DNA from: Cenococcum geophilum 1.58
Taxonomy: Eukaryota > Ascomycota > Dothideomycetes > Gloniales > Gloniaceae
Assembly (NCBI GenBank): GCA_001692895.1
Contig: KV748234.1
Location: forward strand, 558,001 to 622,000
DNA length: 64,000 nucleotides
Reading direction: 5' to 3'
The notes beneath the pieces were generated by a model. It saw only the letters and a program-made list of their open reading frames with translations, was not told the DNA's origin and made no database searches. This document shows positions 2,193-37,185 of the stretch, in pieces. Numbering within the stretch: position 1 is the stretch's first letter; every line of letters begins with the position of its first letter. A program made the translations under genes and the position numbers.

Positions 2193-2200
2193 CTGGTGGT
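2193..2200 (+). repeat. 8-bp target site duplication, left copy
   Basis: CTGGTGGT directly before the left inverted repeat. The identical octamer lies at 37178-37185, directly after the right inverted repeat. Eight-base duplications are characteristic of hAT transposases. Confidence 0.92.
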
Positions 2201-2345
2201 CAGTGTGGGTAACAGTCAGCGTACAGCGAGCTTCGCTGACTGACTGCACTAATTGAATCGCTCGCTGTCCGCTCGCTGGGTATATATATACGCTGACTGC
2301 ACAGCTGTCAGCGCGCTTATCCAAATCGGGTAAATTATATAGATC
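2201..2345 (+). repeat. hAT left terminus with subterminal repeats
   Basis: The 21-bp inverted repeat is followed by several copies of CGCTGACTG, CAGCGAGC and GCTCGCTG on both strands, ending near CAGCTGTCAGCGCGC. The same words occur at the right end. Composition is normal here and becomes TA-rich from about 2345. Confidence 0.75.
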
Positions 2346-2999
2346 TAATAGAGTCATAAAGTTAAATTATATATTTTTGGCGGCACCTCTATATATATAA
2401 ATATTGATATTGCCCAATTTTAAATCTACCCCGGTTTACCCCATATAATATTTAAATATCGTTAGATTTGTTTAGCGCGCCTACAGAGGCTTTAGTAATA
2501 ACGTTAGTAATAAAGATTTAGATTTACCTCAGCGAGCTCAGACGCGATTTTTTAGCTAGCATCGGAATAACCTAAGCCGTCTTCCGAATTGCAAAATCAC
2601 GTCTAAGAGGGTTTGGCGAGTTTTGTTAAAAGCATAAGCAAAATCCATAAAACGGAGATTGCGGATATCTAATTCATTTATTCACATAACGCGTTATTAT
2701 TACCAAAAGTTTATACATTATTTTTAAGACTTAGGGCTTTTAAATAGTATAAATTTTATAATACGGCTATTGCTCGGTCCTAATATTAATTTCGTTAAAG
2801 TTAAAAAACGCGTTATTAAAAGCCTAAGCACGTATTATATCTTATTAAATAGTCTACTAATATTAATAAAACTATATAGATATGTAGACATCTGCTACTT
2901 AAAGCTATTACAACACTTAGTAGGTGCTATAGTTAGGTCCTTTCTTAAAAATATCCTCCCTTGGCCCGGAGTGCCTCTACTACTACTAGGCGTTATATC
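2346..2999. other. RIP-type DNA without recognisable gene
   Basis: TA-rich sequence between the hAT left terminus and helicase copy 1. An open stretch at 2770-3006 has no recognisable domain and lies in a different frame from the helicase. Confidence 0.5.
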
Positions 3000-5350
3000 C
3001 GCATAAAAAACCTACTATAGCTCCAAAGAAAACCACTAGACGTTAGGGTTGGAAGCCTATAGTTAAACGGGAACGCTAGTAGGTCTTATAGAGCTTATAG
3101 AAGCTAGATAATTATATATAGGAGGATTTTACGTCCCTAGCAGAGAGATAGTTATAGGACGTGTAAGATAAGCTTCTGGCCTTATAGGAGGCAAGCAAGG
3201 ACAAATAGTTAAGCGCGATAGATAGAGCTATTAAGCTTCTATATCTGTACAGCGGACGACCTAGTTAAATTAAGGTGTTAAGATAGGTAATATATAGGCG
3301 GAGGGACTTATTTCTAGCAGCGAAGACATAGGGTAAGAGTATAATAATACAGGCGATTCTATTACTAATTCGAGCTTCTGTTACTATTATTATATTACCT
3401 TTAAACACAATTAGAGAGGAGTAGCTATTAAAGATATAGGCTATCCTAGGAGTAAATCCTATATTTATATATACGGAGGTAATAAAAGTGTATACGGATA
3501 TCCTAAAATATATTAAGGCGGGTCGGTTTATATATATTCTAATATTACTAGAGTTACTATTAAGTAAATGGTTCCACCATATCCTTACTTAGCCTACTTT
3601 TCACTCGCATATTTCCTTAGTTATAATTAATAAGTATTATCTAGTTACTAACTAGGGTAAGAGCTTCTGGCCCTATTACGCACAGCTCTTTAAGGTCTAG
3701 TCACTACTTAGTTTAATAGTGCCGTAGTTTATATATACTGTAATACTTAATAAAGAGACGTATATAAAGGTAATAAAGCTAATAGGGTTTTACTAGAGTA
3801 TAATGGATCTTAAATAAATAAATATTAATTAGCCTAACCTATCTATTATTAGGGGCTATATTAAGAGGAGGAATAAGAATAATTATAAGGCACTATTCTT
3901 TGTTATTAAAGAGGCATTTAAGGAGGTGGTAGTAGAGGAGGATTATACATCCACGACCCTTAACTAGATATCCGTATTATCCGGCCAAACACCTATAGCG
4001 CCTAGTAGGATATCCGCATCTTCCAGTCAAATATCCGCTACCTCTATTTATTAATTAGTCGGGCGGATCTAAAATCCGGTAGGAGGTACTATATAGCTAA
4101 AGGGACGAAAGGTTCTAAGCCCCAAATTAATTCCTAAAATAATTATCTTTCTTTATACTATAAATTATATCCGTAGGTATATAAACACAATCCATTTATG
4201 GCTTATAACTAAGGGCTATACTATAAAGCAGGCTAAAATAGCAGTGCGGAGTTATTATGCGATATTATCTAAATATAACAAGAGTAGGGAGTATCGAAAT
4301 TTCTATATAGAAGACTTACTTACCCGCATTCTTATTACGTCGGACGCCCTAGCCCATAATACGGATATTCCGGATATTATCCGTTCTATTATATACGGTT
4401 ATTATCTCAATAAAAGCCTAAATATAATACTATAGTAATTCGGATAGGCCGCCTAATATAACGGTATTACTAAATATATAATTATCCTTATTAAAGACTG
4501 GTATAAGGGCGCTCTTATAGATATTACACTGCTAAAGCAAAAGTCTTAAAAACCTACAGCTCCTCTATCTACCCGACTCGGCCGTAACTTTATTACTACT
4601 AGGATGGCGATATAAAAGGATAGGGTAGCGGATTTCGCTAGTAATCTGGCTTTATTTATTATAATTAACAGTAATATTATCTCGCAGGTATCTACTTAGG
4701 AGGAGGAGGATTAAATACTTAATAAGAATATAATATTATTAGCCCTACTAATTAAGTATATAGAAAAANAGAAGAGGGNNAAGACTAATATANAGAAANG
4801 GGNNNTACTTCTAGATATATTATACGAGCTCGTGAATAAAGCTACTAGATATCTACGTAATATTCTACTTAAGCCGTATAAGGAGACGAGTCCGTTATTT
4901 AAAGGTCTACGCTATTACTCTAATTATAATAATTTGTTATAGGCTTATAAGGAGTATAATATTGTCGCACTATATATTAGGAATATTGTGAAGAGCAAGT
5001 ACTTAAAGGATCTATTTATAAGTATTAAGAAGTGGATTAAAGGATGGCTTAATATAATATACTAGGATGCAGTTTAGAGTCTAATTTTTAGTTATATTAT
5101 ATCTAACAATTAAATCTGTATACTCTATATCTAACCTCCGCTAACTTATAAGGGCCTTAAGCGGATATTATCTAAATGGGATTATAGCTTCCTAGGAGAT
5201 AAAGTAGACGTGCTTATCCGCTTTATTTATAAGGAAAAAACGTAATACTTTAGTACTAGCGTCTTATAGGCTGCGTTACAATCTAGTAAACGTGTTGCTA
5301 TATCTAGAAGCTCGTCACAGACGCCTCTACTATTAGTAGGTCAATAGGGA
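3000..5350 (+). pseudogene. RecQ-like SF2 helicase, RIP-degraded (copy 1)
   Basis: One reading frame can be followed without indels from ~3060 to beyond 5300, interrupted only by TAA/TAG where Gln or Trp is expected. It shows a damaged Walker A at 3317-3340 (AAKT-stop-GKS), then RecQ motif II at ~3617-3670: VIINKYYLVTN-stop-GKSFWPYYAQL aligns with the family's VIDExHxVxxWGxxFRPxY, with Asp-Glu turned to Asn-Lys. Motif V follows at ~4325-4385 (TSDALAHNTDIPDI) and motif VI at ~4435-4460 (QFG-AA type, Arg/Gln codons now stops). Family members are ATP-dependent 3'-5' DNA helicases; in fungi such genes are often repeated and subtelomeric. The C-terminal ~300 codons are not assigned. Ambiguous bases occur at 4769-4805. 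Confidence 0.72.
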
Positions 5351-6498
5351 CCTATTAGTGCATTAACTGTAAAGAGTACTAGCCTTAATTAACCGTTATA
5401 AACTAAAGTATTACCGCCTTTATAGCTATTATTAGCATTTAGCTTATAAACGGATATAACCAAGTCTTAAATAACTTAGCTTATATTAACCTAAAACTTA
5501 TAGGCGAACTAGTCCCAGACTACGCATACCACTCTATTACAGTCATCTTAACAGCTGGATATTTAATATCCGCATATATCTACTTAAAAATCGTCTAGTG
5601 CATATCCGTAAAACCCTTAACTTAACCTTTAGTATCCTAATAACTCCTTATAGCGCCTTTATTGTTCCTAACAGCTTCTTAATATAGCTCCGTATAATCC
5701 TTACAATTCTTTACTACCTTAGTTTATATCTTAAAACAGCCTAGGTATTAGTCCGCGGTATAGCCCTTAAGCTCCGCAGTAGAGGTCTAATAGTATTATT
5801 GGCTTAAATATAGGTGGCGCTAGTTTACAGTATAGTATTTAATCTCCACAGCGATCTCTATGTGCGGTTATTGCGAATTAACGTAGCTTTATTAATAATC
5901 CTACTAACAATAATCCGTTATTAATAGCAATCTGCGGTAATCTAGTGTTAATAGCGACGGCAAACTACCGCATTATGGCACCCTCTATAGTAACTTAGCA
6001 GTAGAATACTAGAAGGGAATTAGCTTATATAGTAGGTGTAGACGGATATCTATAGGGTTGGTATAGTGGTTCGGCAGCTTATCTATTAACCTAGGCTTAT
6101 CGCTTACAGCGGCTTTTAAATAGTTTATCTAACCGACTATATACTAGTGCTTAACAACCGTATACTTCGCCTAGTGGCTTACTAGTATAGTTAGGAAGCT
6201 TGTTCTAACACGCAGACTTACGGGCTAATATATTAGCCACTATAGAGTTAGCTCCCTTCTAGCGGGTAAAATTAACTAGAGGTAAATCTAGCACTTACCG
6301 CCACTCTACTTAAGTAAGAAGTACTACCTCTACTTATATAGCTAGTGCCAATACAACTCTAAGCCAGTCTCTTTAGTAAATCCTCCCCTCTAGTACTGTA
6401 CTAGCTAGCAGTATAATCTTAAAAAAGACGTAGAGACGTCTATTTACTAATATTAGTAGTAATATAAGTATAAATAGGCCGCGGCTAAAACGCTGGAT
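5351..6498. other. RIP-type DNA without recognisable gene
   Basis: TA-rich and stop-filled on both strands. Nothing identifiable is seen. It may be the downstream part of the helicase unit or a separate degraded gene leading into the 51-bp repeats. Confidence 0.5.
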
Positions 6499-6499
6499 A

Positions 6500-7059
6500 T
6501 TAGAGCTTATAGCGCAGTATTAGGTCTTAGCCCTTAAAGCAATCCGGATATTAAAGCTTACAGCATAGTATTAAATTTAAATCCTTAGGGTAGCCTAAGT
6601 GTTAGAGCTTATAGTGTACTACTAAGTCTTAACTTTTAGATAAGCCTAAGGTTTAATATTCGCAATATAGCATTAGATCTCTAATTATAAAAAATTCCAA
6701 AGTTTAATATCTGTGGTATAGCACCAGTTCCTAGGTAGTAGGAAATCCGGAAATTTAGAATTTATAACATAGTATTAGACCTCCGCTCCTAGAAAATCCT
6801 AAGGCTTAGGATTTAAGTTATAATACTAAATCTCCACTTTTAGGAAACTCTAAGGCTTAGGGTTTATAGGCTAATGCTTAATCTCCGCCCTCTAAACTAG
6901 GCGTAGTTTAGAATTTATATGCTAATGCTTAATCCCCACCTTCTAAATTAGGTGCAGCTTAGAATTTATAGTTTAATATTCGATCTCCGCTCTTTAAACT
7001 AAGCACAGCTTAGAACCTACAGCCTAGTACTTAATCTCCGCCCTTAGTTTTAGATATAA
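6500..7059 (+). repeat. 51-bp minisatellite, 11 copies
   Basis: Units start near 6500, 6551, 6600, 6651, 6702, 6753, 6804, 6855, 6906, 6957 and 7008. The consensus begins GCTTAGAATTTATAG and continues with TAATCTCCGC and a CTAAA-rich tail. The period of 51 equals 17 codons. One plus-strand frame gives a recurring A-stop-NL...SPPSKL pattern in which the stops would be Gln before RIP. It may therefore be a decayed 17-residue protein repeat. Units diverge mostly by transitions. Confidence 0.8.
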
Positions 7060-8308
7060 TACAGCTTTAGCAGGTTAGTATTTAATATTCCTTAGCGTTT
7101 TACTTATTTATTAACTTAACTAAGACTTAGGTAGAGCTCTAATTAATATTTAGGTATTAAGTATTAATCTCCATATACGTATTTAAATAGTCTATTAGAT
7201 TCTTATTTAGAAAGACACTAAGGTTTATACCTAAAGCTCCCGAAACCTGTAGAACCTATATTATATTAGCTATTTAGTTTAAGTATTATATAAGAGGTAG
7301 TTAATATTTACTAAGGTAAGTCATTATAATAGTAATTGTTTATTAGTAAGCTAATTCGATAAAATCTACAGCATAGATATTTACCTTTAATTAACCTCCG
7401 TACCTTCTACCTCATAGTATTACATCGCAAACTTTATTATTGTTGTTTTATCTACTGTCTATTAGCATACTACTATCTATAATGCCTTTCTTTATACCTC
7501 TAAATACGTCTAATAGCTATTTAGTTAAGGAACTTAATACGCGCAACGTTAATGATAAAATAATTAAGGACGCTTTTAAGGACGCTTTTTCTTTTACTAA
7601 TCCTTTAGAATATCTACCTAAAGAGTAAGCTTTCTAATACCAAATTATACCTGCAGCTAATATAATTTTAGGAAATACGTACTAAAGTACTCTTTATTAG
7701 ATCTAGCAGAGTACTATAATAAGGTTATTGCGAAATCCGCTAGAAATCCGCTTACCTCTTTATTACTTACCTCTTTACCGCCTACTTCTTTACTGCTTAC
7801 CTCTTCGCTATCTACCTTTAAGCTGCTTATTTCTTTATCGCCTGCTACTTCTAAGAAGTTTAATCCTCGTTATGCTTCTACTTCTCTTAAGAGGCAGGCT
7901 AATAAAATTGCTATATAAAATATTTAGTATAAGATAGCCTTTAAATCGTATGTGTTAACTATACTCTTTTAGTATCTTGTCTACTAATTTACCTCTTATA
8001 GTAACCTAATGGAAATGTTGGAGATTTTAGATAACAATAAAAAGAATAACCTTAATAACGCCAACTCTCCTAAAAGCCCTCCTTTATCCCCTTATAATCT
8101 CCGTAGCCCTTATAAGCTCTATAGTATGTAGACGGCCTAAGCTATAACGTTAGATATTAACATAAACGAGCGCCTTCCTATTTAAGTGCCGTTAGTAAAT
8201 AAATAGTATACCCTAAAAGCTAGTGCTTGGGAGAATATAAAGGAAGCTCGCTAGCGGATATATACCTATATCTAGAATATTAAGGGTAGCTTTAGTATAC
8301 TGTGTAAT

Positions 8309-8562
8309 CCACTTGTAACGGGACTGTCCCGTTATAGTAAGGACGTCTCGGTGAAACACTTGACGATAGTGGAATTCTATCGAAGCCTTTTGACGCACGT
8401 GCACGTACCACGGCTACCCCTATATCTTGACCACGTCGACCCGAACCTGTTCTGTTCTTTGTCCGAACGTCTCATTACTTGCAAGGTCTATATAACTTAG
8501 CTCTTAATAGAATCTTATTTCCTTTAAAGCTGCCATAAAGCACCTTGCCCCCTTACACCACT
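8309..8562. mobile_element. Solo LTR (244 bp) with 5-bp duplication
   Basis: TGTAACGGGACTG...CCCCTTACA at 8314-8557, flanked by CCACT on both sides (8309-8313, 8558-8562). Unit 2 of the tandem duplication lacks the insert at this position, which proves the boundaries independently. Composition is less RIP-biased than the host, so it arrived after the duplication. It shares the stretch CGAACGTCTCATTAC with the solo LTR at 37311-37572. Confidence 0.88.
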
Positions 8563-8843
8563 ATACGCTCTATACGTTAAGTAAGACTATAAATATCGCG
8601 TTTATAAGCAGAACGCTAGGCTATATTTTAGAGGTATGTGCTTAAGATATCGCTTAAGTGGTAGGTTGTGTAAAAAGGTATATACTAATAGTATACCACC
8701 ATTCTATCAGCTAATATGCATATAGGATAATTCGCTAAGATTAGAGCCGGTTACACCTTAGCGCAAAAAACGTGCGTAATTAGCTTCTACTAGTAGTCCG
8801 ACTAGAACACCTACTAAGAAGGTATAATATCCGCATCTTAATA

Positions 8844-8868
8844 ATACGGATATTACTAATATCCGTAT
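8844..8868. repeat. Perfect 25-bp palindrome (12-bp arms)
   Basis: ATACGGATATTA, one C, then TAATATCCGTAT. The identical palindrome occurs at 10756-10780 in unit 2. It combines two inverted copies of the ATATCCGY word that recurs across 2.6-22 kb. Confidence 0.8.
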
Positions 8869-9395
8869 AGCTTTATACCCGCACTATCCCCCCTTTAGAG
8901 ACCTCCCCTCCCCCTAAAACTCCTTCTTGTAGTAATATACACAGCCGTAAAGGCACCCATTCTGCTGCTACTTTTCCTACTCTTTTACTAATTCCTAATA
9001 CGCGTAGTACTGCTTCTGGTACTGCTGCCGCTTCTACTAGCACAGAAAATATTAGGGCGTATTTAGCAATTACTGTTTCTATACGCGTTAATATAATTTG
9101 TAAACGGGTAACTAAAATAGCGAAAGATACTTGGGCTATAGATCGCCGGTTAAGTAAGCTTAAAGATTCTCTAAGTGAGATAAAGGATAAACTTGCGTTT
9201 ATAAGGTGTGGTATTACTACACTTATACGTAACGCTGGGTTGCTAGATATAGAATTTAAATAGATATAGGTTAGCTGTTATTACGGGTTTAGAGTAATAA
9301 AATGGTAGCTCTTGTCTCTCTGCTATTATATATATAGAAATTAAGTCTTTACCTTATATTTAATAGATATACTTAATTAATATTATAATATCTAT

Positions 9396-9443
9396 ATAGG
9401 CTAGGATAAGGATATCCGCATAAGCTAGGATAGAGATATTTAT
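9396..9443 (+). repeat. 24-bp tail repeat, two copies
   Basis: Two units of ATARGCTAGGATARRGATAT type (9396-9419, 9420-9443) at the end of tandem unit 1. The counterpart in unit 2 has four units. Confidence 0.75.
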
Positions 9444-9654
9444 ATATCCGCACCGTTAATGTTTACTAAGGTAAGTCACTATAGCAGCGATTATTTATTA
9501 GTGAGCTAATTTAATAAAATCGGCAGCGTAGATATTTACCTCAATTAACCTCCGCACCTCTTCTTCCTCTACTAACCTTCTACCTTACAGCACCGCACCG
9601 CGAACTTTATCATTGTTGTTTTATATACTGTCCCTTAGAATACTACAATCTATA

Positions 9655-11190
9655 ATGCCTTTATTTACACCTCTAAACAATATTAATACAAATAATAGTA
9701 ACTAGGTGGTTAAGGAACTTAATATACACGACGTTAACAATAAGGAGTTTAATGCTATTAGGCACGCTATAGCTGCTCTTACTAAGCCTTTAGGCTCTGT
9801 TTTTAAAGAGTAAGCTTTTTAATACTAAATTATGCCTATAGCTAATATAATTTTAGGAAATATATACCGAGGCGCTCTTTATAGGATTTAGTAGATAATA
9901 ATAATAAGAATAAAGCAAAATCCGCTAAAAACCCGCTCACCTTTTTACTGGATGCCTTTCCACTGCCTATATCTTTGCCGTGGGCTACTTTGCTATCCAC
10001 TACTTTACTATTTGCCTCTTTACTGCCGCCGCCTAATACTTCTAAAAAGAGGCTTAATAAGGCTTGTTTATCTTCTTTTCTTAAAAAGCGGGCTAAAAAG
10101 GCTGCTAATACAAATATAAAGCTTAAGATAGCTATTAAATCGTATATATTAGTTATACTATTTTAGTGTCTTATCTACTAATTTACCTCTTATAGTGACC
10201 TAAACACTATATATAAGGTTTCTTTAGATAGTAAATCTTTAGACAGCGACAAAGATAAGGACCTTAATGATGCTAACTTTTGCAATCTCCGCAGCCCTTA
10301 TAATCTCCGTAGTACTCCTAATATAAATAAGCACCTTCCTATCTAAGTACCGTTAGCGAATAAATAGTATACTCTAAAAGCTGGTGTTTGGGATAATATA
10401 AAGGAAAGTTGCCAGCGGATATTAACACATGTTTGGAATATTAAGGATAGCTTTAGTAAGCTGCGTAATCCGCTATATACTTTATGCAAAAAGTATAGCT
10501 ATAAATATTGCGTTTATAAGAAGGACTCTAGGCTATATTTTAGGGGTATATGCTTAAGATATTGTATAGGTAGTAGGTCGTGCGGAAAGGTATATGCTAA
10601 TAGTATACTATTATTCTATTAGCTAATATATATATAGGAAAGTTTACTAAATCTAAAGCCAGTTACACCTTAGGGCAGAAAATATACGCAATTAGCTTCT
10701 ACTAGTAGTCCGGCTAAAACATCTACTAAAAAGGTATGCTATCCGTATCTTAACAATACGGATATTACTAATATCCGTATAGCTTTATTATCGCACTATC
10801 TCTACCCGCGCCACTACACCTCCCCTTCTATTAAGACTCCTACTTATAGTGGTACGCACGGCTATAGGGGCACCCGCTTTACTACTACTCCTTTAACCCT
10901 TTCGCCAATTGCTAGTATGCTGGGTGCTACTATTACTACTACCGCTTCCGCTAGCGCTGGGTCTATTAGGGTGTATTTAGCAATCGCTGTTTCTATATAT
11001 ATTAATATAGTTCGTAAATAGGTAACTAATATAGCGAAAGATGTTCGAGCTATAAATCGCTAGTTTAATAAGTTTAAAGATTCTTTAAGTAAGATAAAGG
11101 ATAAGCTTGCGTTCCTAAGATATAGTATTATTATACTTATATATAATGCTAGGCTACCAGATATTAAATATAGGTAGATATAAGTTAGCT
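9655..11190 (+). pseudogene. Unknown Cys-rich protein gene, copy 2, decayed
   Basis: Second copy of the same gene, without the LTR. Its order is MPLFTPLNN at 9655, a KELN segment, a Ser/Lys-rich segment (~9975-10140), a helical ENIKES segment (~10400), a Cys block at ~10480-10590 (LCKKYSYKYCVYKK, then further Cys and RSCGKVYAN), and a helical C-terminal part (~11020-11130). Cys residues survive here that are lost in other RIP-hit genes, so the block is readable. Role unknown. It could be a DNA-binding protein of a mobile element or a captured host gene. Confidence 0.5.
10756..10780. repeat. Perfect 25-bp palindrome, second copy
   Basis: Identical to the palindrome at 8844-8868 although the surrounding units have diverged. 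Retention may be chance or may mean it lacks RIP-preferred sites. Confidence 0.8.
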
Positions 11191-11326
11191 ATTGCTATAG
11201 GTTGGCTATTATTGCTAGTTTATAATAATAAAATAGTAGCTTATACCTTTTTGCTACTATATATAGAGGAATTAAGTCTCTACCTTATATTTAATAGATA
11301 TACTTAATTAATATTATAATATCCAT

Positions 11327-11422
11327 ATAAGCTAATATAAAAATATTCGTATAAGCTAATATAAAGATATCCGTATAAGCTAATATAAAGATATCCGTAT
11401 AAGCTAAGATAAAGATATTTAT
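11327..11422 (+). repeat. 24-bp tail repeat, four copies
   Basis: Units at 11327-11350, 11351-11374, 11375-11398 and 11399-11422. The middle two are identical (ATAAGCTAATATAAAGATAT then CCGT). Array length differs between the two duplicated units (2 versus 4). Confidence 0.8.
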
Positions 11423-11549
11423 ATATCTGCACTACAAAATAGCTTACTATTATATTATATACTACGCACCAAGAAGATTATACGCCGGCTAGAGTTAATA
11501 TTAATAAAAAGAACTCGATTAATATATTAAAACGGAAATGTACTATAAG

Positions 11550-11772
11550 TGTTAGACTTATAAGGGGATATCACGTAGCTACGGTTCGTAGATAGTATGA
11601 TGATTGTTATTCTTATTAATTGATTCTTAAAGAAAGGGGTGAGGAACTTAAGGTTCCTTACTACGCTAGTGCCGCGGCGGCACGTGACGGCAACTTGCCG
11701 CACGTAACGGTAACTTGCTATATATGGTGGTAATATGCCTTATATAGTAACTACTTGCCTTTATTCCCAATA
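11550..11772 (-). repeat. E1 LTR (3' LTR of minus-strand element)
   Basis: Starts TGTTAGACTTATAAGG and ends TTCCCAATA. It matches 17420-17642 with transition differences only in most places. Confidence 0.92.
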
Positions 11773-11979
11773 CTAGCAACTCTTTTTTTATAGTTGCTAT
11801 CTATATATATATACCGCTTAACTAGCATAGTAAATATTAATCCTCCTTACTTACTATTGCTATTATAATATAAGTCTCGCTATCCTAAAATTTACCTTTT
11901 AGTATATGGTGCTTTCTTATTTAGGAGTTATAGGTAGATATTATGTTTAGAGGGCCGTTAAGGCGCTAGTAGTAAGCGA

Positions 11980-12024
11980 GCTAATAGCGATTTTCTATCC
12001 CGGGGATAGAAAATCCTAATTAGC
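11980..12024. repeat. Conserved hairpin near E1 3' end
   Basis: GCTAATAGCGATTTTCTATC pairs with GATAGAAAATCCTAATTAGC around a short CCGGG centre. The same 45-nt structure lies at 60295-60339 in E2, again between the RNase H end and the 3' LTR. Confidence 0.8.
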
Positions 12025-15000
12025 TGGATTAAGTTAGGCTCCCCCTTTAAAAAAGTTTTGGCAAGAGAATCTAACTAATTAGACAACTTTAACCGCTAGT
12101 TGAAGTTCCTAGATATTTTAAGATCTTACGTAACTAAGAAATTTCTAGAGACTCCCTTTTAACCTAACCTTTAACTTATATATATAGAGTATTTATATTA
12201 ATAAATGTCTCTAGTGCCTTGTTTAGGTTCGCCTTTATTATTATATCTATTAGGTTATTTTGGCTATTAATCTATTAAATCTTAAAGAGTTCTTAACGCT
12301 TATAGGATTGCTAAAGTGCCATAATATTAATTATAAGGCGTTTCTCTTTTATAGTACTAAGCTTAACTAAATACTTATAGAGGGAATATAAGTTAGTACA
12401 CACAATTATAGGGATAACGGGAAGTTCGAGTTAATCTGTAATTATCTTTAGGGTAGTTCCAATTGTAATTGCTATATTAACTCCGCCAACCATTCTATAT
12501 ATCTCTAATGCTAAAACACTTTAGGTAATGCGCTTACTCTTAGTTAAGCTCTAATAGATAAGATTACTATAGATTATAAAGTTATTCTCTCCAGTAAATT
12601 CGTTTATAATAATAATTTTATATCCCAACTAAGAGCTAAAATCTTTATTATTTATAAATGATCTATTAATAAATATAAAGAGCTTAGCGGTAGGAAGATT
12701 AATAGGCACGTAAAGTAGTCCCTAATTAAGATAGTTTATTTACTAGAAAAGACGCTTATTTAGGGTAAGGATATTATCCTTAGTTGGTTCCTAGTATTAG
12801 GCGGCAATAGAGAGATTAAATAAAGCCTTAGGTTAATAGATAGAAGCAATATAAGCTCCGTAAGCACGTTACTCCATATATCCTTACTTTAGAGAATTAA
12901 CGTTAATAATGTTAATCTTCTTACCTTAACCCTTTTAGCGCAGAGTAATAAAATCCTTATTTAGGGAGAGGATGCATCTATTAAAGAGTAATGGTGTTGT
13001 TAAACTAAGCTTTTTCTTTAGCTTTGCTATAAGATTTGCCTTTACTAGCTCGTCTTCTTTAAGAGCTAAAAATTGGTCGTCTCCTAAGATAATTGTATTA
13101 TTAGTTTGCATGCCAACAATTCCAAATAGAGTTCCTGTAGTTATAATAAGGAAGTAGGGATTAAATATAGAAGTAGTTATTAAAAGCTTCTCTTTATAGT
13201 GCTTGCTATAGGTAGCCTACTAGTGAGTTCCTACCTCTATAATTCTATATAATGGCTTAAGCATAACCATAATCATATCTTTAGGATACTAGTGGCGAAT
13301 TTACTCCAGAAGGTATGCTAATATTAAGCGCTAAAGGTACGTCTCTAATTGGGTGTAGGCTTAAGTAATATCTTATAAATAAACCGCCATTCTATTCTTT
13401 ATTAAGGAGGGAGCTAGCGTAATAATAACTCGCTAACTAGCTTGTTAAATTATAGGAGATTATATAAGAATTACCTCCTTACTATTATTATTGTAACCTT
13501 AGATAATAAGTCTTAATTTCTTAAATAGGGCGTTAGTAGCTTTACCTTTAATCTTATTAACCATTCTTAACTTAAAGATATAAACTTTATCGAACTTAGT
13601 AGGGTCATACTTCTTAAATTTAAAGACTCCTCTTATAATAAGACCGTTAATTTCCTGCTTATTAGATGCTTGGAAAGGAGCTCCTAAAGTTATAATACGG
13701 CCTTCCTTTTAGAGCTGTTTTGCGAGCTTAAAGTTAGCCTTCTCTTTAGCTATTATAAAGGCCATTAATAACTTATCTCCACTTTTAATAGTAGTAACGA
13801 ATTGCTCTTTAAAATTAATAAGGTGTTAGCGATTTTGTAATCCTTTTAGGCGACCTCTACCGCGTTATAGTTGCGGTATATCTACTACAATTATATTAGA
13901 ATTATAGTCTCCTTCTAGAGTACGTTAATTGTGGTTCTCCTTTAGGGTATCCTCTAGGGTATCCTCTAGGGCATCCTCTAGGGTATTCTATAAAGGCTCG
14001 GAACTATTATTCCTATAGTAGGGCTTAATAATGGTTAAGCGGAATTAAGTGGGTCTATAGGGCATCTAAAGAGTATAAGTTTAACTATTACTTGTAATGA
14101 GTTTATATAGGCCTAACTATCCTCCCTTCTTACGCTATACCCGTACTTTAGATTAAAGTGGCAAATTAAGCGTAGTTAAGATGTTTAGGCCATTTCTTAT
14201 TCCTAATACGTTATTAACCTAGCGCGTAGCGTAGAGACGTTATACCTCTTTTGTTGCTTTGCGGATAGCCTTAGCTTATTACATAATAGAGGGAAATAGT
14301 AGAGAATTGTTAGTTATTTAAGGGTAGGTACTAAAGACTAGTAACGTAGGTACGAGCCTATTTAGACTAGCGGAATCGTTAATAGCCTTAACAGCCATCT
14401 ATAAAATAAGCTTTTTGCTAGCGTTCTCTAGTTCTAAAGAAATAATCTTATACGCTTAGCGTAATGGCGCGTAATATTATTCTACTTTTCTAATACTATT
14501 ATGCGCCTTAATAGGGACTTCCTTAACCTGAATTGCTATTACCTTTATCTATTATTAGAACTCTATAGATAAGAAGTTCTTTTTTACGTTATAGACGATT
14601 TAATTAGGGGGTCCTAGGTAGATATTAATCTAGTATAACTAAAGGGTATCCTATGCGTTCTTAGCTAATATATCCTTTAAGAATTATGCGGCTTAGAAGG
14701 AGGTTAAGAAGTTAATAACTTAGAGTACTGGCTTGCTACTAAGATATATAACGTTAACAATAATATAGAAGTTAAAGTTGTAGTTATCTTTAAGGGTAAA
14801 CTTAAATCGGCTAGGGGACTTCTGGTTTATTTAGTAGTAATAATAGTACTTTATAAGATACTTAATTGCCTTAACCTTAACTTTATAGCCTACTTACTAA
14901 AGAACCCTAAGTAATTAATAAATAGATAGGTGGCTAAAATAATGGTATAGTTGGCGTAATTCTAACTTAGTTAAGTGGCTTTAAGTAATACTCTTTTTTA

Positions 15001-21872: not shown

Positions 21873-21874
21873 TA

Positions 21875-27200: not shown

Positions 27201-28328
27201 TTACTACTAATTATAATTAATTTACTAGTATCCTTACTACTTTTATTACTGCTAATTTAAGTTAGCCTACTTAAGAGGCTAAAGCGGATAGCATATAACT
27301 AGAGAGGCTAGTAGCGGTTAACTAGGTTACGGTTTATATCCTAGGTTAACTACTAGCCTACTTAACCCCTGCGAGCAACTGCTGCCCACTTATCTATAGC
27401 GATAGTATTAGAGGTGCCTATTAACTAGTCCTTAATATTATTTAGAGTTACTATATCTACGCCCTTGGGTGGAGTCCAGTCGCGGAGCCTATTAGGGTGG
27501 AGGTAAAGCGATAGCTGTTAAATCCGTAACTTTAGGAACCTAGTAGTATATATCTTAAATAGGTCGAGATAGAGGATATTAAAAAAGTTAATATTAAGGA
27601 GAGAGGAGTTGGGACGGCTAACGAAGCTATTAGGATTATAAATGCTAACTATAGTAAGTAATCTACTATAAGCAGTTAGTAAAACGGTTTTCTTAAGATA
27701 ATAATATAAGAGATATTAGGTACAAACTATGCAGTAACTTAAAGGGGTAGACTATAAGGAGTAAGGAGTTAGTAAGTAGTCGTTAACTATAATAAATAAG
27801 GCGAAGAGAGTAGAAATAAGGGTAGTCTTTAACTGGTAGTTATAGAAGAAGTAGTTAATAATAAGCTAAATAAGTAGTTGGGGGGTGGTGAGCGATAAGC
27901 CGAATAGGTAGTTAAGGGGTTAAGGGGGTAAAGTGCAGCAGTTAAGTTAAGTGAAGTTAAAGTAAAGCAGTTAATAACTTTTATCTTTAGTATAAAATAT
28001 ATTATTAATTGCCTCTATATAATCTCTAAGTGCTAATAGCTTAGTAGTAGTAGTAGATTGCTTCTTATCTTTAGACGAAATAGAAATAATCTTATTAGGT
28101 AGAGTAACATTTTAAAGATTAAATAAGTAAATCTTTTTTTAAGAAGCTCTGTACTATTAGTAAGAATATTAATAGACTTAAATTAACTATTATAATTACT
28201 ATTAACTGCTTAAATATATATATAACCCTTAGCCTAGAGATAGTATATAAGACTAAATATATTAGCAAGTGCTAACTTTTTACTATATTTGGAATTGGCT
28301 CTTTAACTAAATAAAGTCTTTAGTATAG
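24226..28328 (+). pseudogene. Unassigned RIP-degraded coding region
   Basis: Long plus-strand frames interrupted by RIP-type stops indicate former coding sequence, but no family is recognised. Visible pieces: a Ser/Pro/Gln-rich stretch (~25180-25700), a basic GTRRGRKRRVK tract (~25745-25780), and a Lys/Glu/Arg-rich, probably coiled-coil stretch (~26330-26530). At ~27005-27140 there is a duplicated Cys/Tyr-rich segment. The Gypsy element E6 is inserted at its right end (duplication TATAG), so 34501-36890 may be its continuation. It could be a retroelement Gag-like gene or the C-terminal part of a large element protein. Confidence 0.35.
27010..27137 (+). repeat. Duplicated ~46-bp Cys-coding segment
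   Basis: TTATCTCTCCCTAAAA occurs at about 27014 and again 78 bp (26 codons) later, with similar flanks (GTGGGCTTTTTGTTATC versus GGGACTGCTTATTATC). In-frame spacing and encoded Cys/Tyr residues suggest two decayed zinc-knuckle-like repeats. Confidence 0.45.
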
Positions 28329-28531
28329 TGTCACGGCTAGCTTCCCGTGGGAGCGGTTTGATAGATTAAGTAATAATAAGGGGCTATATTATGAATAGAC
28401 TAAGGTAAGGGCTTGAAGAAAGGGGCGCGGTAGACGACTATGTATATGTTCGGTCGTCGGGGCAACGTTAAAGCAACGTTGATCCGTGACCGACGACGCC
28501 TCGATAGTAGCTATGTAGACGAACCGTCACA
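28329..28531 (-). repeat. E6 left LTR
   Basis: Starts TGTCACGGCTAGCTTCCCGT and ends GAACCGTCACA. It contains a GGTCGTCGG...CCGACGACG inverted pair around a duplicated GCAACGTT. Confidence 0.92.
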
Positions 28532-31500
28532 TCACCCCCCTTTAAGCCAGGAGGATCGCCCTCGATCCTTATAGTCAGGCTCTCCTTATCTATCTCGCCC
28601 TTCCGTCCTTTTTTGCTTTATTGTCTTCCTCTAAGGGCTCTAGATCTACGTCCTTATAATACACCTCTAGCCATTATATTAGCTGTATAGGTGGTCTAGT
28701 ATTATGGGGTCTCTCGTCGTGGAACGCCTTAATCTTATAGGGGGGCGCCGATAAAGCCGTCTGCGTTATACCAGGTATTATTTAGGTCGTGGCCTACCTA
28801 GTTAACCTTATACTGTAGCCTTCTATAGTAGGTTTTACTAGTAAGGATCTTATTAATCTTGTATTCCGGCTTGCTATTAATTAGGATTGGCTTCTCTAGC
28901 TCCCTATTTTAGCCCAGCAGGGGGTTATCTAGGTCCTTTCGCAGTTGATTAGTATAGAAGACGTTTAACATCTTTATATTTAGGGGTAGGTCAATAATAT
29001 ACGAGTGTCCTTTTATGCCTAGAATCTTATAGGACCCTATAAGCTATCTATCTAGCTTAATACTCAGTTGGTTAGTAGCCCAGCCCTTCCTAGTAATATA
29101 TACTTAATCGCCTACTCTAAAGTCTAGTTCGTAATAGTGCCTATTTACTTACCTTATCTGTTACTCTTAGGCCTTAGCTAGGTTGTCTCTTACCTATTTA
29201 ACTGCGTCCTAGGTCCTACGTGTAAAGACTTAAGCTTCTTATTATGTTAGCTTTTTATAAGGCGTTAAGGCTGCTTGTATATGTTCCTCCTAGTTAAAGT
29301 AAAGCCTTAGCTTAAATCCTAGCTCTAGCTTATATGGTGCGAAGCTAGTAGATTTATAGGGTAAGATTGCTTGTGCGAAGTCTATATAGGGGAGGAGCTT
29401 TAACTAATTGTCCTAGTAGTGGTTAATAAAGGGCCTTAAGCGTTAGTTAATGTACTAGTTTAGTACTTCTATATTACTATTGGTTTGCGGGTAGCTAAAT
29501 ATAGAGAGCTTTTACTTAACGCCGGTTAGTTTATATAGCTCGTCTGTAAAGGCTAAGATAAATTAGGGTCCTTAATCTAATATAACTGTCTCTAGAAGGC
29601 CGTATACGCGCTAGACGTATTGGTAGTATAGGTTTACTGCGTTAGCTGCGGTAGCAGTTTTATAGTAGGGTAGTAAAAAGGCTCTTTTGCCTAGTCGATC
29701 AACGACTATAAAGACGTTATTAAAGCCCTTTTTATCCGTTAGGAAGGACTTAAAATTAAAAGAGACGTGCTGCTAGCAGCGTTCACTAATTGGTAGGGGG
29801 TGCAGTAGGCCTAGGGTTTTATCGCGGGGTATATAGGTCCTCCTGTAGGTTCTATAGTTTCCTATATAGGTATTGCAGTCTGAGGGTAGTCCTAGCTAAT
29901 AGTATTAGTCTGCTATAAGTTTCCTAGTCTTCGTCTTACCTGGGTAAGCGGTTACCTAGTAGGAGTATACCTCTACAATAAGGTAGGTATGGAGGTAATT
30001 AGTATTAGGGACTATTAGCTTGCTAAAGCGGGTTAGTAGTCCTCCTTAAAGTTTCTAGCCCTTTTGGTCTTGCTTGGCTAGTTAATATAGCCCTACTAGC
30101 GACTCGCTAGTTTAATTGGCCTAGAGGATCTAATTAACCAGCTTATACGGTTCCTATTTGTAACTTACTGCGACTAGGGGGTCCTTAGAGGTTAACTCTA
30201 GTGTAGTAATTATAAGGGCGGGGTTAATTAGGTATATAGTGCGTGCGGCTATATTCTTCTCTTTTTACGTCTTTAGGTCCTCTTACTTTTATAATAGGGT
30301 ATTAGCTACTATATTTGCCGTGCCTGGCCTATATATAATCTGCATATAGAAATCAGCTAGCAGGTCTACCTAGCGGGCTTACTGTAGACTTAGCAGCCTC
30401 TTGGTTGTAAAGTACTTAAGGGCTTAATAATCTGTAATTACCACAAAGGGTGTATATTGGAGGCCGATAAGGTGACCTCGCCATTCCTGTAGGCCTCTTA
30501 TCACCGCTAGCATCTCTTTATCGTGGATCTTGTACCGCATCTCCGTAGGAGATATTATCTTTAAGAAGAAGGCTACTAGCTTCTAGGTCCTATTGTCTTG
30601 CAGCTAGTTTAGTACCCCAGCTACTACTCCGTCACTCGCGTCTATCTCTATATAGGTGTTTCAGAACGGTAAGTAGTGCTTAATTATACTGCTAGATAGC
30701 ATAAGGGCCTTAACTCGCTTAAAGGCTTTAAGCTCTTCCTCCCCTAGCGGGTGCTATGCTCCCTTCTTTATAAGCTTACTAAGCGGTTATATAACTCAGC
30801 CGTAATCCTTTAAGAAGGCCTAGTAGAAGTTATAGAATTCTAGGAAGGATTATATCCCTTTTACGGAGGTAGGGGGTTCCTAATCCTTAATTATAGATAG
30901 CTTATTGGTGTCTATAGTAACCCCGTTAGTACCAATAACAAAGCCTAGGAACTTTGTCTTAGTAACGTTAAACTTACTCTTTTTAATATCCGCTTATAAG
31001 CCTGCCTCTTAAAGCTTTTACAGGACCTTCTTAATATAGACTTCGTGCTCTAGTAGGTTGTCTAAGTAGATTAGGATGTCGTCTATATAGGCTGTATAGA
31101 AATCGTCTAGGTAGTCGAAAAGGACATTATTAATAAATCTCTAGAAGGACGTAGGGCCGTTATATAGTCTAAAGGGTACGATATAGTACTTATATAATCC
31201 GTATCTTATACGAAAGGTGGTTAACTCCTCTACCTCTTCCTTTAGCTATATACGGTAGAAGGCCTACCAAACGTCTAGCTTAGTAAAGATCTTAGCTCTT
31301 AATAGCCTAGTTAATGTCTCCTTAATTAATAGCAGCGGGTAGCGGTCCTTTTTAGTAATTGTATTAAGCTTTTGAAAGTCAACGTAGAATCGCCACCCCC
31401 CTTTTGGCTTTTTAGTAAATAGGACTAGAGCTATAAAGGGTGCATCGTTTAGTATAATAAACCCCTTTTGTAGGTGCTCCTATAGGTAGGCCTTAACTAG

Positions 31501-31653
31501 CTCTAGCTGTTTTAATAACATATTATATAGCGGGCTAGGGGCTAGTTCTCTACTACTGCTTTTAAGAACAATATTATAGTCTACCCCCTCGCGATATAGT
31601 GATAGCATATTGGAGGTAGCTTTTAAGAAACCGTTAGCGTACTCTTAATAGGG

Positions 31654-31917
31654 CTATAGTAGCTTTTCGTAGATAAGCTGGCGGAGTTCTTCCTTATTAT
31701 CTGGTAGCGTGTCCTGTCCCTTTCTATCTTCTATTAGCCGGTCAATCTTATAGAGGCTAGTAGATCTAATTACTACGCCTTTATGCTTTGCTCTATATAA
31801 GAATCTCCTAGCCTTAAGTAACGCGATATCCGCAGCTCTAATATCCGCGATAGGCGAGAACTGCCTTACTCTCGGCTTTAGTAGTAAGGCTAGCTTAGGG
31901 TAGAGCTGGTTTTGCAT
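31654..31917 (-). CDS. E6 polyprotein fragment (protease-RT region), open 87 codons
   Basis: An 87-codon stretch of the E6 pol frame that escaped stops. The segment LYKIDRLIEDRKGQD and the preceding RRFLYRAKHKGVVI fit the linker between the Gypsy protease and reverse transcriptase. It is a fragment of a degenerate polyprotein and not an independent gene. Confidence 0.6.
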   Translation of the reverse strand: MQNQLYPKLALLLKPRVRQFSPIADIRAADIALLKARRFLYRAKHKGVVIRSTSLYKIDRLIEDRKGQDTLPDNKEELRQLIYEKLL

Positions 31918-34292
31918 CTTCCTTATTGCGTCTTAGGTATCAATCCTCTAGGTATACTTATAGTCGTATAGGGCTCGTTTTGATGTAATTTTAGTAGGAG
32001 GCTTTTTCTCTTAAAGCTTTTTAATTGCGGCTGTACGTTTAAGAATACGTTGGGGCGTAGGCACAGGCTCTTGATCTAGCAGTGCGTCTCTTTAATCTGC
32101 ATCTTTCTAGTGATCCTTATTAATTGGCGGGGGAAAGAGCTCCTTTCTTGGTATAATTACGTCCTACCTGCTATAGTAGTTCCTCTTAGTTGGCCATACT
32201 AAGGCCTGGTGTTTGCAGTTAATAAGGGCCCTAGTTTTCTTAAACCACCTATAGCTAATAAGAAGATCGTGGTGGCCTATATTGCAGAATAGGAACTATA
32301 TAGGGGCTTATTAACCGTCTATAACTAGGTTCGCCTTAAAGAGCTATCTAATTATGTCTATCTGCTAATTATTATAGCTAGACACGGTAACTCCTTGTCC
32401 TTTAATCTTATAGAGCTTTAGTTATAGTTATTACTTAATAATTAGTAGTAGCTTATAGTGTATAAAGGCCTTTCTACCCGCACTAGAGTTGAGCAGGCTT
32501 ACTATATTAAGAGCTACGCCACCTAGCGTGATCCTATATAGCATTATAAGGGCTACGCCTCCTAAGATCTCCTTTAGCTGTACGGGCGCTGTGTTAATTG
32601 CTTTGGTCTACTCTAGGCAGGAGACTTCTCCTAAAGCTGCTTATTTTCTAATTCCGCCAAGTTAGTAACTATCTTATACTCTTTGCTTTAGTTAATTGCT
32701 TTAGCTTCTATCTTCTTCGGCGCTATATAATCCTTAGAATAGTATCCTTACTTGCTATAGTTAAAGTAGGTAACTGGCGCTCTTGCGGCTGGTACTAAAG
32801 TCGGAGACTACTAGGAAGGGAGGGGACCCTTAGTCTCTTTAGCGCCCCTAGTAGATGCTCTCTTCGTAGCCTAGGCTGCTCTATGGTTACTTTGTTTCTT
32901 ACCTATCTGCTTTAGACCTTAGGCGTACTGTTAAGTAGTCTTATAATAAGCGTGGAAGCTACAGTCTTCGTCTACCACCTTAACTTCTATTTAGACGCGT
33001 AGGCTATCGTAAAGCTTATTATAAAGCTCCTCTTTCTATTAATCTTATGGCATCCTTAAGATATTTGCTAGCCGTATAAAGTTAGATTAGAAATTGTTAA
33101 AGTCTCCTAGGTACGGCATCTTAAGGCCTTTAAGTTCCTGCTAGGCCTTAATGCGGCAATTTAGGTCCTTAAAGACGTTCTCTAGGAACTTAAGTACCTC
33201 TTTACTAGTAGGGTTGCGTTCCGCGTCGCGCTCTGCCTCTAGATAAGGTAAGAGGTGGTTATAAGCTTTGCCTCCTACACGCGTCTTAATATACGCTACT
33301 TTTATATCTTCTTCTTGGCCTAGGTCGTCCCGGTAAAACTAGTCTACATTAGATTAAAGCTTATTTTATACGTGGCCGCTCTAGGCCTAATAGGTAGGTT
33401 CTTTTCTATCTATAAGCATAGGTAGATTTAGGAACTTTGCTATGCGTCCTAAGCCCATAACACTGCTCATCTAAGAGAGTGGTGTCCCTTCTTAAATCGT
33501 CCGTAACGGTATGCTTTCTTACTTACTGTTTTCCCGATCTGGGGCTTATATAGTAACCTTACGGCCTATCCTTAATATCTTCCAATTGGCCTTGCGGAGC
33601 TTGTTAGTCCTATTATCTAGGTGCTCCTTAAGCTCCGCTATCTTTACCTCGGCCTCCTCTTTTGTATTAATAGCCTTATACGCGTGGTTATTTATAAGAC
33701 GCTATAGTATAGCAATCTACTGTTCCAACGCCTTCCTTTATATTCCCTAGAGCCTTAGCTCCTCCACAAGTTCGGTTATAGGTATCTTGGCTAGGCTTTA
33801 GGTAGTCGCGGCTGTAAACTCCCTTTTAGTCTCTATCTTAAAGTATATAGGGTTCTTACCGTCTTTCGATTGTGCTATAAGACGGTCCTATTTACTCTTT
33901 ATATCGTCTGAAAGCTCTATCTTACCATAGTACGGTTAGAGCTCTGGCGGCTTAAGTATTGCATCTACAGGTTCCTCGCAACCTGCTAGCGCTAGGTCAA
34001 TAGCTATCTCTAGTGCACTAGGCCTTAATGCGCTCTTTCTTGCCATAGTATCTCTTTGCTTCCTTAGGCAAGTCCTCTTACTACTAAGATTGTAATTAGG
34101 GTGATCCTTTTAATCTAATTACCGCAGTTTCTTCTTTTAGCTGCTTAATCTACTGTCGCAATTGCCTGCCTTAAGCAGGGCTTAGAGGGTCGGTTGGTTT
34201 ATAGTTGTGGTAGTAGAACTAGCTACGCGTTTAACCGTTGGACCTAGTATTATATCGCCTCTATAGGCCAATTAGGGTTAACCTTAGTCTAA

Positions 34293-34495
34293 TATCACGG
34301 CTAGCTTCCCGTAGGAGTAGTCTAATAGATTAAGCAACAATAAGGGGCTATATTATGAATAGACTAAGGTAAGGGCTCGAAGAAAGGGGCGCGGTAGACG
34401 ACTATGTATATATTCGGTCGTCGGGGCAACGTTAGGGCAACGTTGATCCGTAACCGACGACGCCTTAATAGTAGCTATGTAGACGAACCGTCACA
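34293..34495 (-). repeat. E6 right LTR
   Basis: Matches 28329-28531. It starts TATCACGG, with the terminal TG mutated to TA. Differences from the left LTR are mostly transitions. Confidence 0.92.
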
Positions 34496-34500
34496 TATAG

Positions 34501-36889
34501 TACATAGTTAAGAAATATACGAACTAGCAAGCGCAACCTATTTAAATATCTTTTTAACATCGTAAGTAAAGTTCTTATATAGTTTTATATTAACGGTATA
34601 GTAGTAGTTAATATACTCTAGGGCAAGATTAATTGCTTTAAAGGTATTTAGTTAACCCGCTAGATTTACCAGACTTAACGTAAGAATTAATTATTAAAGC
34701 TTAGTAGTTGCGATCTAATCTATAAGAAGCTATTAAAGATAAAGCATTTTATACCCGTACTATAACTGCTTAGCCCTATAGAACTAAATAGAGAGTAGAT
34801 TAATAAGTTAGTGGATTAGACTAATATTGCTATAATAGATAGTATACCGTAGGACTATAAAAGCTTTAACCTATTAGAGATACCAACACATACTAAGAAA
34901 CTCTTTATTATTATGCCCTTAACCGGTCTAAGCGGAGTAGGTAAATGCCCGTTGTTATACACGCTTAATTAACTTAAGAAATTAAGATAGAGTTAGCTGT
35001 ATAATAGCATCATTATAGAACTCTTTCCTATAATTTTCCTTGCTATTAACCCCTTGGAACCATCTATTAGTACTAAGTATGTTATACTAGAATGCAACTA
35101 CTTAAGCTGTCTAGCCTTATATAATTAATAGCTTAATAAAATGGAATTTAGCATTCTCTTATAAGATTCTATACTGGTTTTAGTAGCTAATATTATAAAG
35201 GAGTATAGCCTTTAAGTAAGTGCGAACTATAAGGTAAAGGAAACTTTAAAGGATATAAAAGAATGCGGGTAGCTTAAGTAACTAGTCCTAATGGTTAAAA
35301 GCTTAACTAGTAAGAGACTACTTAGTTTTTATGCTCCTAATATATTAAATAGTTTTCTAATCGCCCTAGGCGAGCTAAAGGCGCTAGGTAAAATGGCCCG
35401 ACTTATTATCCTCTTTAAGGCTAAGTTTATGGATCTAGATATCCTAATAAACACTATATATACCTTTAATTATACCCTTATTATAAAAAATCGCACCTAG
35501 CTATTATAGAGCAGTCTTTTAAGGAGATAGTAGGTTAAGCTTTGGTACTATAGGAAAAAGACCTAGCTTACTACTAAAAATATATTTAACTGCTTATAAA
35601 TAAAGCTTGCGGATAGTAGTAGTAATAAAGTATATTAATAACTGCTATAAGATATAATCCCGTTAAAGACCTAAAGATAAAATATTATTATTAAAAAGAA
35701 GTAGTTGTAATGGGTTAAATATTAACTACTTAAGGCTAGTAGTTAGAATCTTAGGACAAAGGATAAGAAGCGTAGTAGTTATATTACATATTCTTATTCT
35801 AGAAGACCTAAGTACTTAATCTATAACGTCGTCCTTAAAATTAAAGTTATTGTAGACTAGTAGCGCTTAAGGATTAACTGTAAGGCTAAGTAGCTTATTT
35901 TTTTTATTAGTTAGCTATATAAAATATAAGCTAGGGGGTCGAACCTTCCTTTATATTATTAGCAATATCTATAAGGTATTAATTAATATATTTATAACCA
36001 TTATAGAGACCTAGCCCAGCTAATACCTTAATAACTTAACGCTTAATACCACTTCTAAGTAGGTAGATTCCTAACATTTTTATAAAGAAATTGGTAGTAA
36101 ACCGTGTACAACTCCTATAGATAATAGAAGTAATTAAATATAACTACTGCTAGACTATCTTAGAATTTCCTAACCCTTTATAACTGCTCTAACCCTAGCG
36201 TTAATTACTTATAAGCTTTTTAAGCAGAGCAGTCTATATAGGAGTAGTTAATTTAATTTTTTCTAATATTTAAGAGAAGTTAACCTTCTCTATATAGGTA
36301 GAGTAGTTAAACTTATTAAAATATAGCTGCCTAAGTAGTGCATCAAGTTCTTAGATAAGTTCTGTTAAGGAAATATCCCCTACTAATACGTAACTAGTTA
36401 ATTAAAGGGCTGTATAAACCTCCGCTTATTCTAAAGTAGAACGTAATAATAAGATTCGCTAACTAATATAGAGGCTACCCGATCTATTATTAACACCCTC
36501 TATAACCCATGCCTTAAGGAATTATTTAATATTAAAGTTGTTTTGCTATTATAGTATTTATATCGCCCGTAGCTTTTGGCGCTGGGAAAAAGGGCTTCGC
36601 TATTTTCTAATTCGCCCTTAGTAACTAGTAAGGGATATAGTTACTTACCTTTAAGGCGACGGAGATATAAAGGACGGTAATAAGGGGGAAAGGGAGTTAA
36701 TATTAGAGAGTAGGGAGGATAAGGACACGTTGGTGTTTACCTAAATACTAGAAGCGCGTAACTTGTAAGGAAGTAGTATTCCTATTATTAAAAAGTAATT
36801 AATTATAGAGGAGACTGGTCTAACTTAACTTGTTAGGTTATTAGGTTAAATAGGTATTGTTAGGGGGTTAAATATATGGAGAGAGTGTC
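34501..36889 (+). pseudogene. Unassigned RIP-degraded coding region, right of E6
   Basis: Former plus-strand coding: the longest clean piece (35291-35500) encodes LTSKRLLSFYAPNILNSFL and LGELKALGKMARLIILF. Earlier pieces include QDYKSFNLLEIPTHTKKLF (~34850-34910). No family is recognised. It may continue the region left of E6 (24226-28328), since E6 was inserted between them with a clean 5-bp duplication. Confidence 0.35.
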
Positions 36890-37177
36890 TCTTATACAAA
36901 ATTATAAAAATTTAAGTTGAGCCTCACTAAAACTCGCACTAAAGGTCCTTAGACGGCAGGGCAGACTTAAGGTCGGTAGATAGCTGATTGGTTAAAAAAA
37001 GTGGCGTTTTCTTAGATGGAGACTAGTGATACTTTAGTATTAGTGAGTGCGCCTTCAGTCTGCCCTTGCCGTCTGAGTCGCTTACTGGGATAAATAACTC
37101 CATACGCTGACTGACTGCTTACATCAGCAGCTAGCTGTCAGCGACGCTGCCAGCGACGCTGACTGTTACCCACACTG
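36890..37177 (-). repeat. hAT right terminus with 130-bp inverted module
   Basis: Ends in the 21-bp inverted repeat (37157-37177), preceded by CGCTGACTGACTGC and CAGCGACGCTGCCAGCG subterminal words. An internal module (36948-37077, 130 bp) has inverted ends CTTAGACGGCAGGGCAGACT and AGTCTGCCCTTGCCGTCTGAG. The sequence is not RIP-mutated, unlike its counterpart at 22420-22650. Confidence 0.75.
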
Positions 37178-37185
37178 CTGGTGGT
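37178..37185 (+). repeat. 8-bp target site duplication, right copy
   Basis: CTGGTGGT, identical to 2193-2200. The ATPase exon resumes at 37186. Confidence 0.92.

Follow-up and report, generated by a model that had tools for sequence, protein, structure and literature searches.

An AAA+ ATPase exon in Cenococcum geophilum 1.58 is split by a 35-kb segment with the ends of a hAT transposon, which raises the question of whether a giant hAT-ended unit entered the gene whole or a small hAT element was filled later; a preliminary description of the locus had put forward both readings. We addressed this in the 64,000-nucleotide stretch containing the gene (the window, contig C59:558001-622000; coordinates without a contig name are window positions) and in the assembly of 177,193,698 bases and 162 contigs. 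Its size and repeat load resemble those that PMC5023957 gives for Cenococcum geophilum (178 Mb, 81% repeats). The segment is almost certainly a nested set, in which two large transposons, termed A and B, lie within a small hAT element and each holds a long terminal repeat (LTR) retrotransposon. For the whole explanation, in which A and B are additionally driven by their DUF6589 protein, we estimate a probability of about 0.88.

Outer hAT element and host gene

The features that define the outer boundaries are listed below; the three hAT parts were delimited by comparison with sibling copies and with the sibling L009.

2193-2200, no strand: hAT target duplication, left copy, CTGGTGGT
37178-37185, no strand: hAT target duplication, right copy, CTGGTGGT
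2124-38546 (end approximate), plus strand: host ATPase gene, interrupted; exon 2124-2200 resumes at 37186, with later pieces to about 38546
2201-2523, plus strand: hAT remnant, left part, with terminal inverted repeat (TIR) 2201-2222
21980-22463, plus strand: middle part of the hAT remnant, with heavy C>T/G>A mutation
37102-37177, plus strand: hAT remnant, right part, with TIR 37156-37177

The outer repeats (2201-2222 and 37156-37177) are identical over 22 bp, so that they are perfect, as previously described, and one base longer than the 21 bp then given. The octamer reported outside each of them is exact on both sides. A chance inverted repeat was rejected: among the 21 inverted-repeat diagonals with a perfect 18-mer in the window, equal octamers at the outer edges were found on one, the hAT TIR pair alone, in a rough control that examined longer diagonals at their outermost edge only. 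When the flanks are joined with one octamer, the ATPase exon is open across the junction, in agreement with the earlier reading of the frame. Residues 3 to 64 of the 64 in its translation match a paralogue at C5:2984242-2984427 with 71% identity and no stop; this was the best of 53 rows, and the window's own two pieces were rows 2 and 4. A misjoin of the assembly at one or both ends might be suspected in a repeat-rich genome, where contigs may break in repeats. Its probability is negligible in view of the exact duplication, the exon in frame across the empty site, the match to the paralogue and the duplications present at every inner junction.

The hAT sequence in the window amounts to about 0.88 kb in its three pieces. 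A probe from the hAT left end was placed at 40 positions in the genome, including the window (40 scored of 157 candidates), and the 21-base TIR, with up to two mismatches, occurs at 29 places compared to none for a reversed control. We examined 20 copies with a strict end-pairing test, and the ends of 10 could be paired within the stretch taken. Nine of these 10 siblings are 0.96 to 4.0 kb long (963, 1051, 1123, 1171, 3211, 3212, 3240, 3511, and 3987 bp), and one is 8.6 kb (8598 bp). The 8-bp duplication is exact in seven, as it is in the window copy, and matches at 7/8 positions in two and at 3/8 in one. The siblings join window blocks of approximately 2201-2524, 21965-22461, and 37067-37177, which are widely separated there. 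In the nearest relative, L009 (1171 bp, with the duplication ATTTGTGG), the sites of both A and B are empty; L009 carries its own insert of about 265 bp at a different position. When aligned permissively, other hAT siblings run about 30 bp past the B junctions; the bounds used here for hAT, A, and B rest on the termini, the duplications, L009, and the B siblings.

The outer element shares with the hAT superfamily its 8-bp duplication, a TIR that starts with CAG, as hAT TIRs do, and a 3.24-kb sibling (L012) that encodes Dimer_Tnp_hAT (E=1.2e-8). It differs in having only its 0.88 kb of hAT sequence, split by two insertions, and no transposase of its own. It is a small non-autonomous hAT derivative.

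Two further observations concern the host side of the locus. A stretch of about 300 bp (37300-37608) separates the ATPase motif LLHG from GPGTGKT and is by eye similar to the 265-bp insert of L009 (common ...agagagcttctagagcc...cagagttct...); it is perhaps a repeat resembling a short interspersed nuclear element or a miniature inverted-repeat transposable element. Further downstream are two adjacent inverted repeats, 42213-42445 and 42449-42701 (45 nt at 100% and 55 nt at 96%), with 143 nt between the arms in each.

Elements A and B and the order of insertion

Nearly all of the filling consists of two elements and the LTR retrotransposons within them.

2524-21970, plus strand: element A, 19,447 bp as found and about 12.0 kb minus later inserts; TIRs TTACCTCAG.../...GGTAA
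2515-2523 and 21971-21979: A target duplication (9 bp), left and right copies, GATTTAGAT
3104-7067, plus strand: broken RecQ-like helicase gene of A, matched over 3104-4651, 4772-5236, and 6513-7067
8018-9260, plus strand: copy 1 of a gene of A that is zinc-cluster-like with a possible coiled coil; 244-bp insert at 8314-8557
10239-11168, plus strand: the same gene of A, copy 2
11550-17642: LTR retrotransposon 1 (LTR1) within A; target duplication ATAAG at 11545-11549 and 17643-17647
17639-19746, minus strand: DUF6589 gene of A, broken; PF20231 match at 18277-19434, E=4.3e-35
20798-21874 (bounds approximate): foldback insert in A, arms of 334 nt
22464-37093, plus strand: element B, 14,630 bp as found and about 8.3 kb minus later inserts; TIRs TTATC.../...GATAA
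22456-22463 and 37094-37101: B target duplication (8 bp), left and right copies, ATAACTCC
23109-24054, plus strand: broken RecQ-like helicase gene of B (extent of the match)
28132-28328, minus strand: DUF6589 gene of B, part beyond LTR2
28329-34495: LTR retrotransposon 2 (LTR2) within the DUF6589 gene of B; target duplication TATAG at 28324-28328 and 34496-34500
34496-35752, minus strand: DUF6589 gene of B, main part, broken

Both A and B recur elsewhere in the genome with their own termini and duplications. The left end of A was found in 41 rows (40 scored places of 398 candidates), comprising the window, 39 matches at 93 to 96%, and one partial match at 85%; three interior probes of A each gave 40 scored places, window included. 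A sibling on contig C4 of about 12.0 kb is collinear with A minus LTR1, the foldback of about 1.07 kb, and the 244-bp insert. Two short derivatives (L029 and L030) join approximately 2524-2995, 20484-20800, and 21869-21970. The A termini are TTACCTCAGCGAGCTCAGACG, with variants among copies, and a 9-bp duplication was present in all five copies read, exact in the window, L029, L030, and C75 and with one mismatch in C4. For B, three siblings (L031, L032, and L033) of 8.2 to 8.5 kb are without LTR2 and without 24058-24251. The termini are TTATCTCAGTAAGCGACTCAGACGG, again with variants, and the 8-bp duplication was found in 4/4 copies (exact in the window, L031, and L032; 7/8 in L033). Matches to the left and right ends of B on the same contig and strand suggest that copies of about 1.2 to 1.7 kb and of about 14.6 to 16 kb exist elsewhere as well.

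Other arrangements of these sequences were also seen. The arm sequence of the foldback is found in pairs at other loci, two A-type left ends point away from each other about 10 bp apart at C87:303013-303445, and the B copy L031 is followed, about 25 bp past its right end, by an A-type terminus (TTACCTCAGCAAGC; L031 ~8280-8295).

The alternative that a composite hAT-ended unit of about 35 kb (22.7 kb if the LTR elements arrived later) entered the ATPase gene whole has in its favor the perfect outer inverted repeats with their exact duplication and the outer hAT ends, which are less mutated than the middle. Against it, L009 is empty at both inner sites, the fillers carry their own duplications, and nine of the 10 paired hAT siblings do not exceed 4 kb. 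The same interior bounded by the same ends at another locus, which the preliminary description had proposed to look for, was not found when we probed the hAT/A junction: of the 41 rows obtained (40 scored places of 308 candidates), the window row is the only one to span the junction, and the other 40 rows start at window positions 2501-2524, 36 of them at 2519-2524. This result covers one genome and one of the four junctions. We consider entry as a giant unit very improbable. The competing suggestion, a small hAT filled later, is supported by the empty sites in L009 and by the independent termini, duplications, and recurrence of A and B. The filling was not gradual, being made up almost entirely of two large transposons and two LTR elements. 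A nested insertion can thus imitate a giant transposon, and the two are told apart by the duplications of the inner elements and an empty sibling.

In the nested set, a non-autonomous hAT of about 0.88 kb would first have entered the ATPase exon, giving the CTGGTGGT duplication. A and B would then have entered the hAT, giving their own 9-bp and 8-bp duplications; the order of A relative to B is one that we infer. LTR retrotransposons would subsequently have entered A and the DUF6589 gene of B, each with two LTRs and a 5-bp duplication (ATAAG and TATAG), before the segment underwent mutation resembling repeat-induced point mutation (RIP). A second LTR1-related copy lies in the window at 54657-60691 in the opposite orientation, with arms about 82 to 88% alike.

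Compared to L009, C>T/G>A changes number 63 in the middle part of the hAT (468 columns), 18 in the left part (317 columns), and 0 in the right part (76 columns); for the same three parts, reverse transitions number 4, 9, and 2 and transversions 9, 2, and 0. TpA/ApT ranges from 1.60 to 2.00 across A, B, and the LTR elements, compared to 1.14 for the ATPase and 0.96 for the genes of an unmutated A-type copy on C75. With L009 taken as the reference for the direction of change, this pattern fits RIP-like mutation in place after the filling.

Gene content of A and B and the probable role of DUF6589

The unmutated A-type copy (C75:754919-765805; 10,887 bp) has TIRs TTACCTCAGCAAGCTCAGAC and an exact 9-bp duplication, CAAGAAACA, on both sides. 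Its open genes encode a RecQ-like helicase, a zinc-cluster-like protein, a small protein, and DUF6589. The helicase matches DEAD (5e-13) and Helicase_C (1.2e-13), with a RecQ zinc-binding match at E=0.00037 that is below the cut-off, and its PDB sequence matches are WRN first and then RecQ, RECQ5, and BLM. The zinc-cluster-like protein gave E=0.013 (below the cut-off), and the small protein gave weak coiled-coil matches. Among the siblings, L035 of A has Helicase_C (E=0.012) and RecQ_Zn_bind (E=0.04) in one frame, both under the Pfam cut-off, and L032 of B has Helicase_C (E=3.1e-8) and PF20231 (E=2.5e-32). In the window, Pfam scans gave no match in the left half of A and none in five of the six frames of 17640-28320. 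The plus frames of B likewise gave no match in three PDB sequence searches; the window copies are too mutated.

Searching the window with the C75 proteins placed one helicase (plus strand) and one DUF6589 (minus strand) in each of A and B, with the two genes convergent. The two RecQ-like helicases and the DUF6589-like gene previously noted are therefore present, but they belong to separate elements with one of each. The duplicated gene previously noted, zinc-cluster-like with a possible coiled coil, was likewise recovered, twice and in A only. The termini of A and B are also similar (TTAYCTCAG...). Judged from these termini, the RecQ-like helicase, and the convergent DUF6589, A and B represent two families within a single transposon kind.

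DUF6589 is probably the DDE (Asp-Asp-Glu) transposase of A and B, because its models resemble the transposases of P element, Hermes, RAG1, and Transib and because it has a conserved candidate D-D-E set. In the fold searches, the first 11 and the first 18 VIA rows were P element, Hermes, Transib, or RAG1; plain Foldseek gave a best E of only 3.5e-3. Like the P-element and Hermes transposases, with which identity is 7 to 10%, the model has a helical region ahead of the last acidic residue. The candidate acidic residues, assigned by conservation and suitable order, are D23 (28/28), D183 (47/48), and E464 (48/48), and D367 and D460 are equally conserved. H218 is conserved in 48/49 rows where the C/DxxH motif of the hAT, P, MuDR, Kolobok, and Dada group would lie, between the second D and the last E; the reference protein has G in place of C/D and reads GxxH.

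Three DUF6589 proteins matched only PF20231 in Pfam at E<=5, with no hAT or P family. MuDR, KDZ, and Plavaka were absent from the Pfam output, no comparison dedicated to them having been made; KDZ and Plavaka were also missing from the fold output, and nothing is excluded by these absences. With a DUF6589 profile, a search of PDB sequences gave only rows at E 0.12 to 0.24, a viral fold library gave nothing at E<=0.001, none of 1066 candidates was scored when one broken DUF6589 served as protein query, and an IMG/VR scan confirmed none of 271 pattern matches.

DUF6589 could instead be an accessory protein, with another gene of A and B encoding the transposase, as A also encodes the helicase and two copies of the zinc-cluster-like gene. 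This is unlikely, since the genes common to A and B are DUF6589 and the helicase and the transposase-like fold was found in DUF6589 alone among the proteins modeled, a set that does not include the remaining genes of A and B. With DUF6589 as the transposase, it would cut at the TTAYCTCAG... termini, and the RecQ-like helicase may assist movement, e.g., by unwinding or repair. A likely function would thereby be available for this Pfam family, so far classed as of unknown function; among its homologues are proteins named from Fusarium duplospermum, Penicillium, Dactylonectria macrodidyma, and Ascosphaera pollenicola.

Relation to known transposons and RecQ helicases

Judged from the open-licence papers searched, the kind represented by A and B seems undescribed. 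DUF6589 was not found in the open-licence PMC literature, and PF20231 occurs there only in an unrelated context; a description elsewhere, e.g., in Repbase, is possible. The word RecQ was not found in the text searched of PMC12730594, on fungal DNA transposons carrying TET/JBP genes.

Of 274 candidates for PF20231 in the genome, 102 were scored as matches. Eight are without a stop, and seven of these are no more than about 4.3 kb from the end of a contig.

C9, C42, C74, and C149, base 16 onward: stop-free DUF6589
C43:2937-4205: stop-free DUF6589
C41:1514938-1516206: stop-free DUF6589
C88:529918-531189: stop-free DUF6589

In four contigs the first 60 bases are identical and fall inside the DUF6589 gene, and one contig starts inside a RecQ-like gene. 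These positions could reflect a subtelomeric location or breaks in the assembly where repeats are nearly identical. Passages of PMC4522978 describe telomere-linked RecQ helicases of fungi as multicopy genes. They are similar to the present genes in being multicopy and RecQ-like, and the stop-free DUF6589 copies lie largely near contig ends. In those passages, however, they are presented as telomere-associated genes and not as part of a TIR transposon, and the contig ends here may be breaks. We tentatively propose, at somewhat less than even odds, both that DUF6589 serves as DDE transposase in an as yet unnamed superfamily (large fungal TIR transposons with 8- to 9-bp duplications, 5'-TTAYCTCAG, and a constant convergent RecQ-like partner) and that the telomere-linked helicases are at least partly its helicase gene. 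It thereby becomes possible to test whether the helicase has a role in DDE transposition and whether the telomere-linked helicases are of mobile origin.

We lean slightly toward placing the DUF6589 transposons outside the named superfamilies. That A and B are instead diverged members of one of these (hAT, P, MuDR, or Kolobok including KolobokH) is a serious possibility of lower probability. The modeled fold of DUF6589 is closest to P element and Hermes, H218 lies where a C/DxxH motif would, and target duplications of 8 to 9 bp, as usual for hAT, P, and MuDR, suit all three. Against such membership, the DUF6589 proteins have no other Pfam match, and the motif is GxxH in the reference protein. 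DUF6589 thus resembles the P-element and Hermes transposases in overall predicted fold and differs from them in its low identity and in the lack of a hAT or P Pfam match. RecQ is also found in KolobokH, described in the relevant part of PMC9587614 as DNA transposons of fungi in which a RecQ helicase lies downstream of the transposase domain; Kolobok itself has 4-bp TTAA duplications and 5'-RR termini. Kolobok membership of A and B was rejected on these two features. A and B are similar to KolobokH, as so described, in being fungal DNA transposons with a predicted transposase and a RecQ helicase. They differ from it in their duplications of 9 bp (A) and 8 bp (B), in their 5'-TT (TTA) termini, and in a helicase that is convergent with DUF6589 on the opposite strand. 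Besides KolobokH, A and B would be a second kind of fungal transposon that carries a RecQ helicase.
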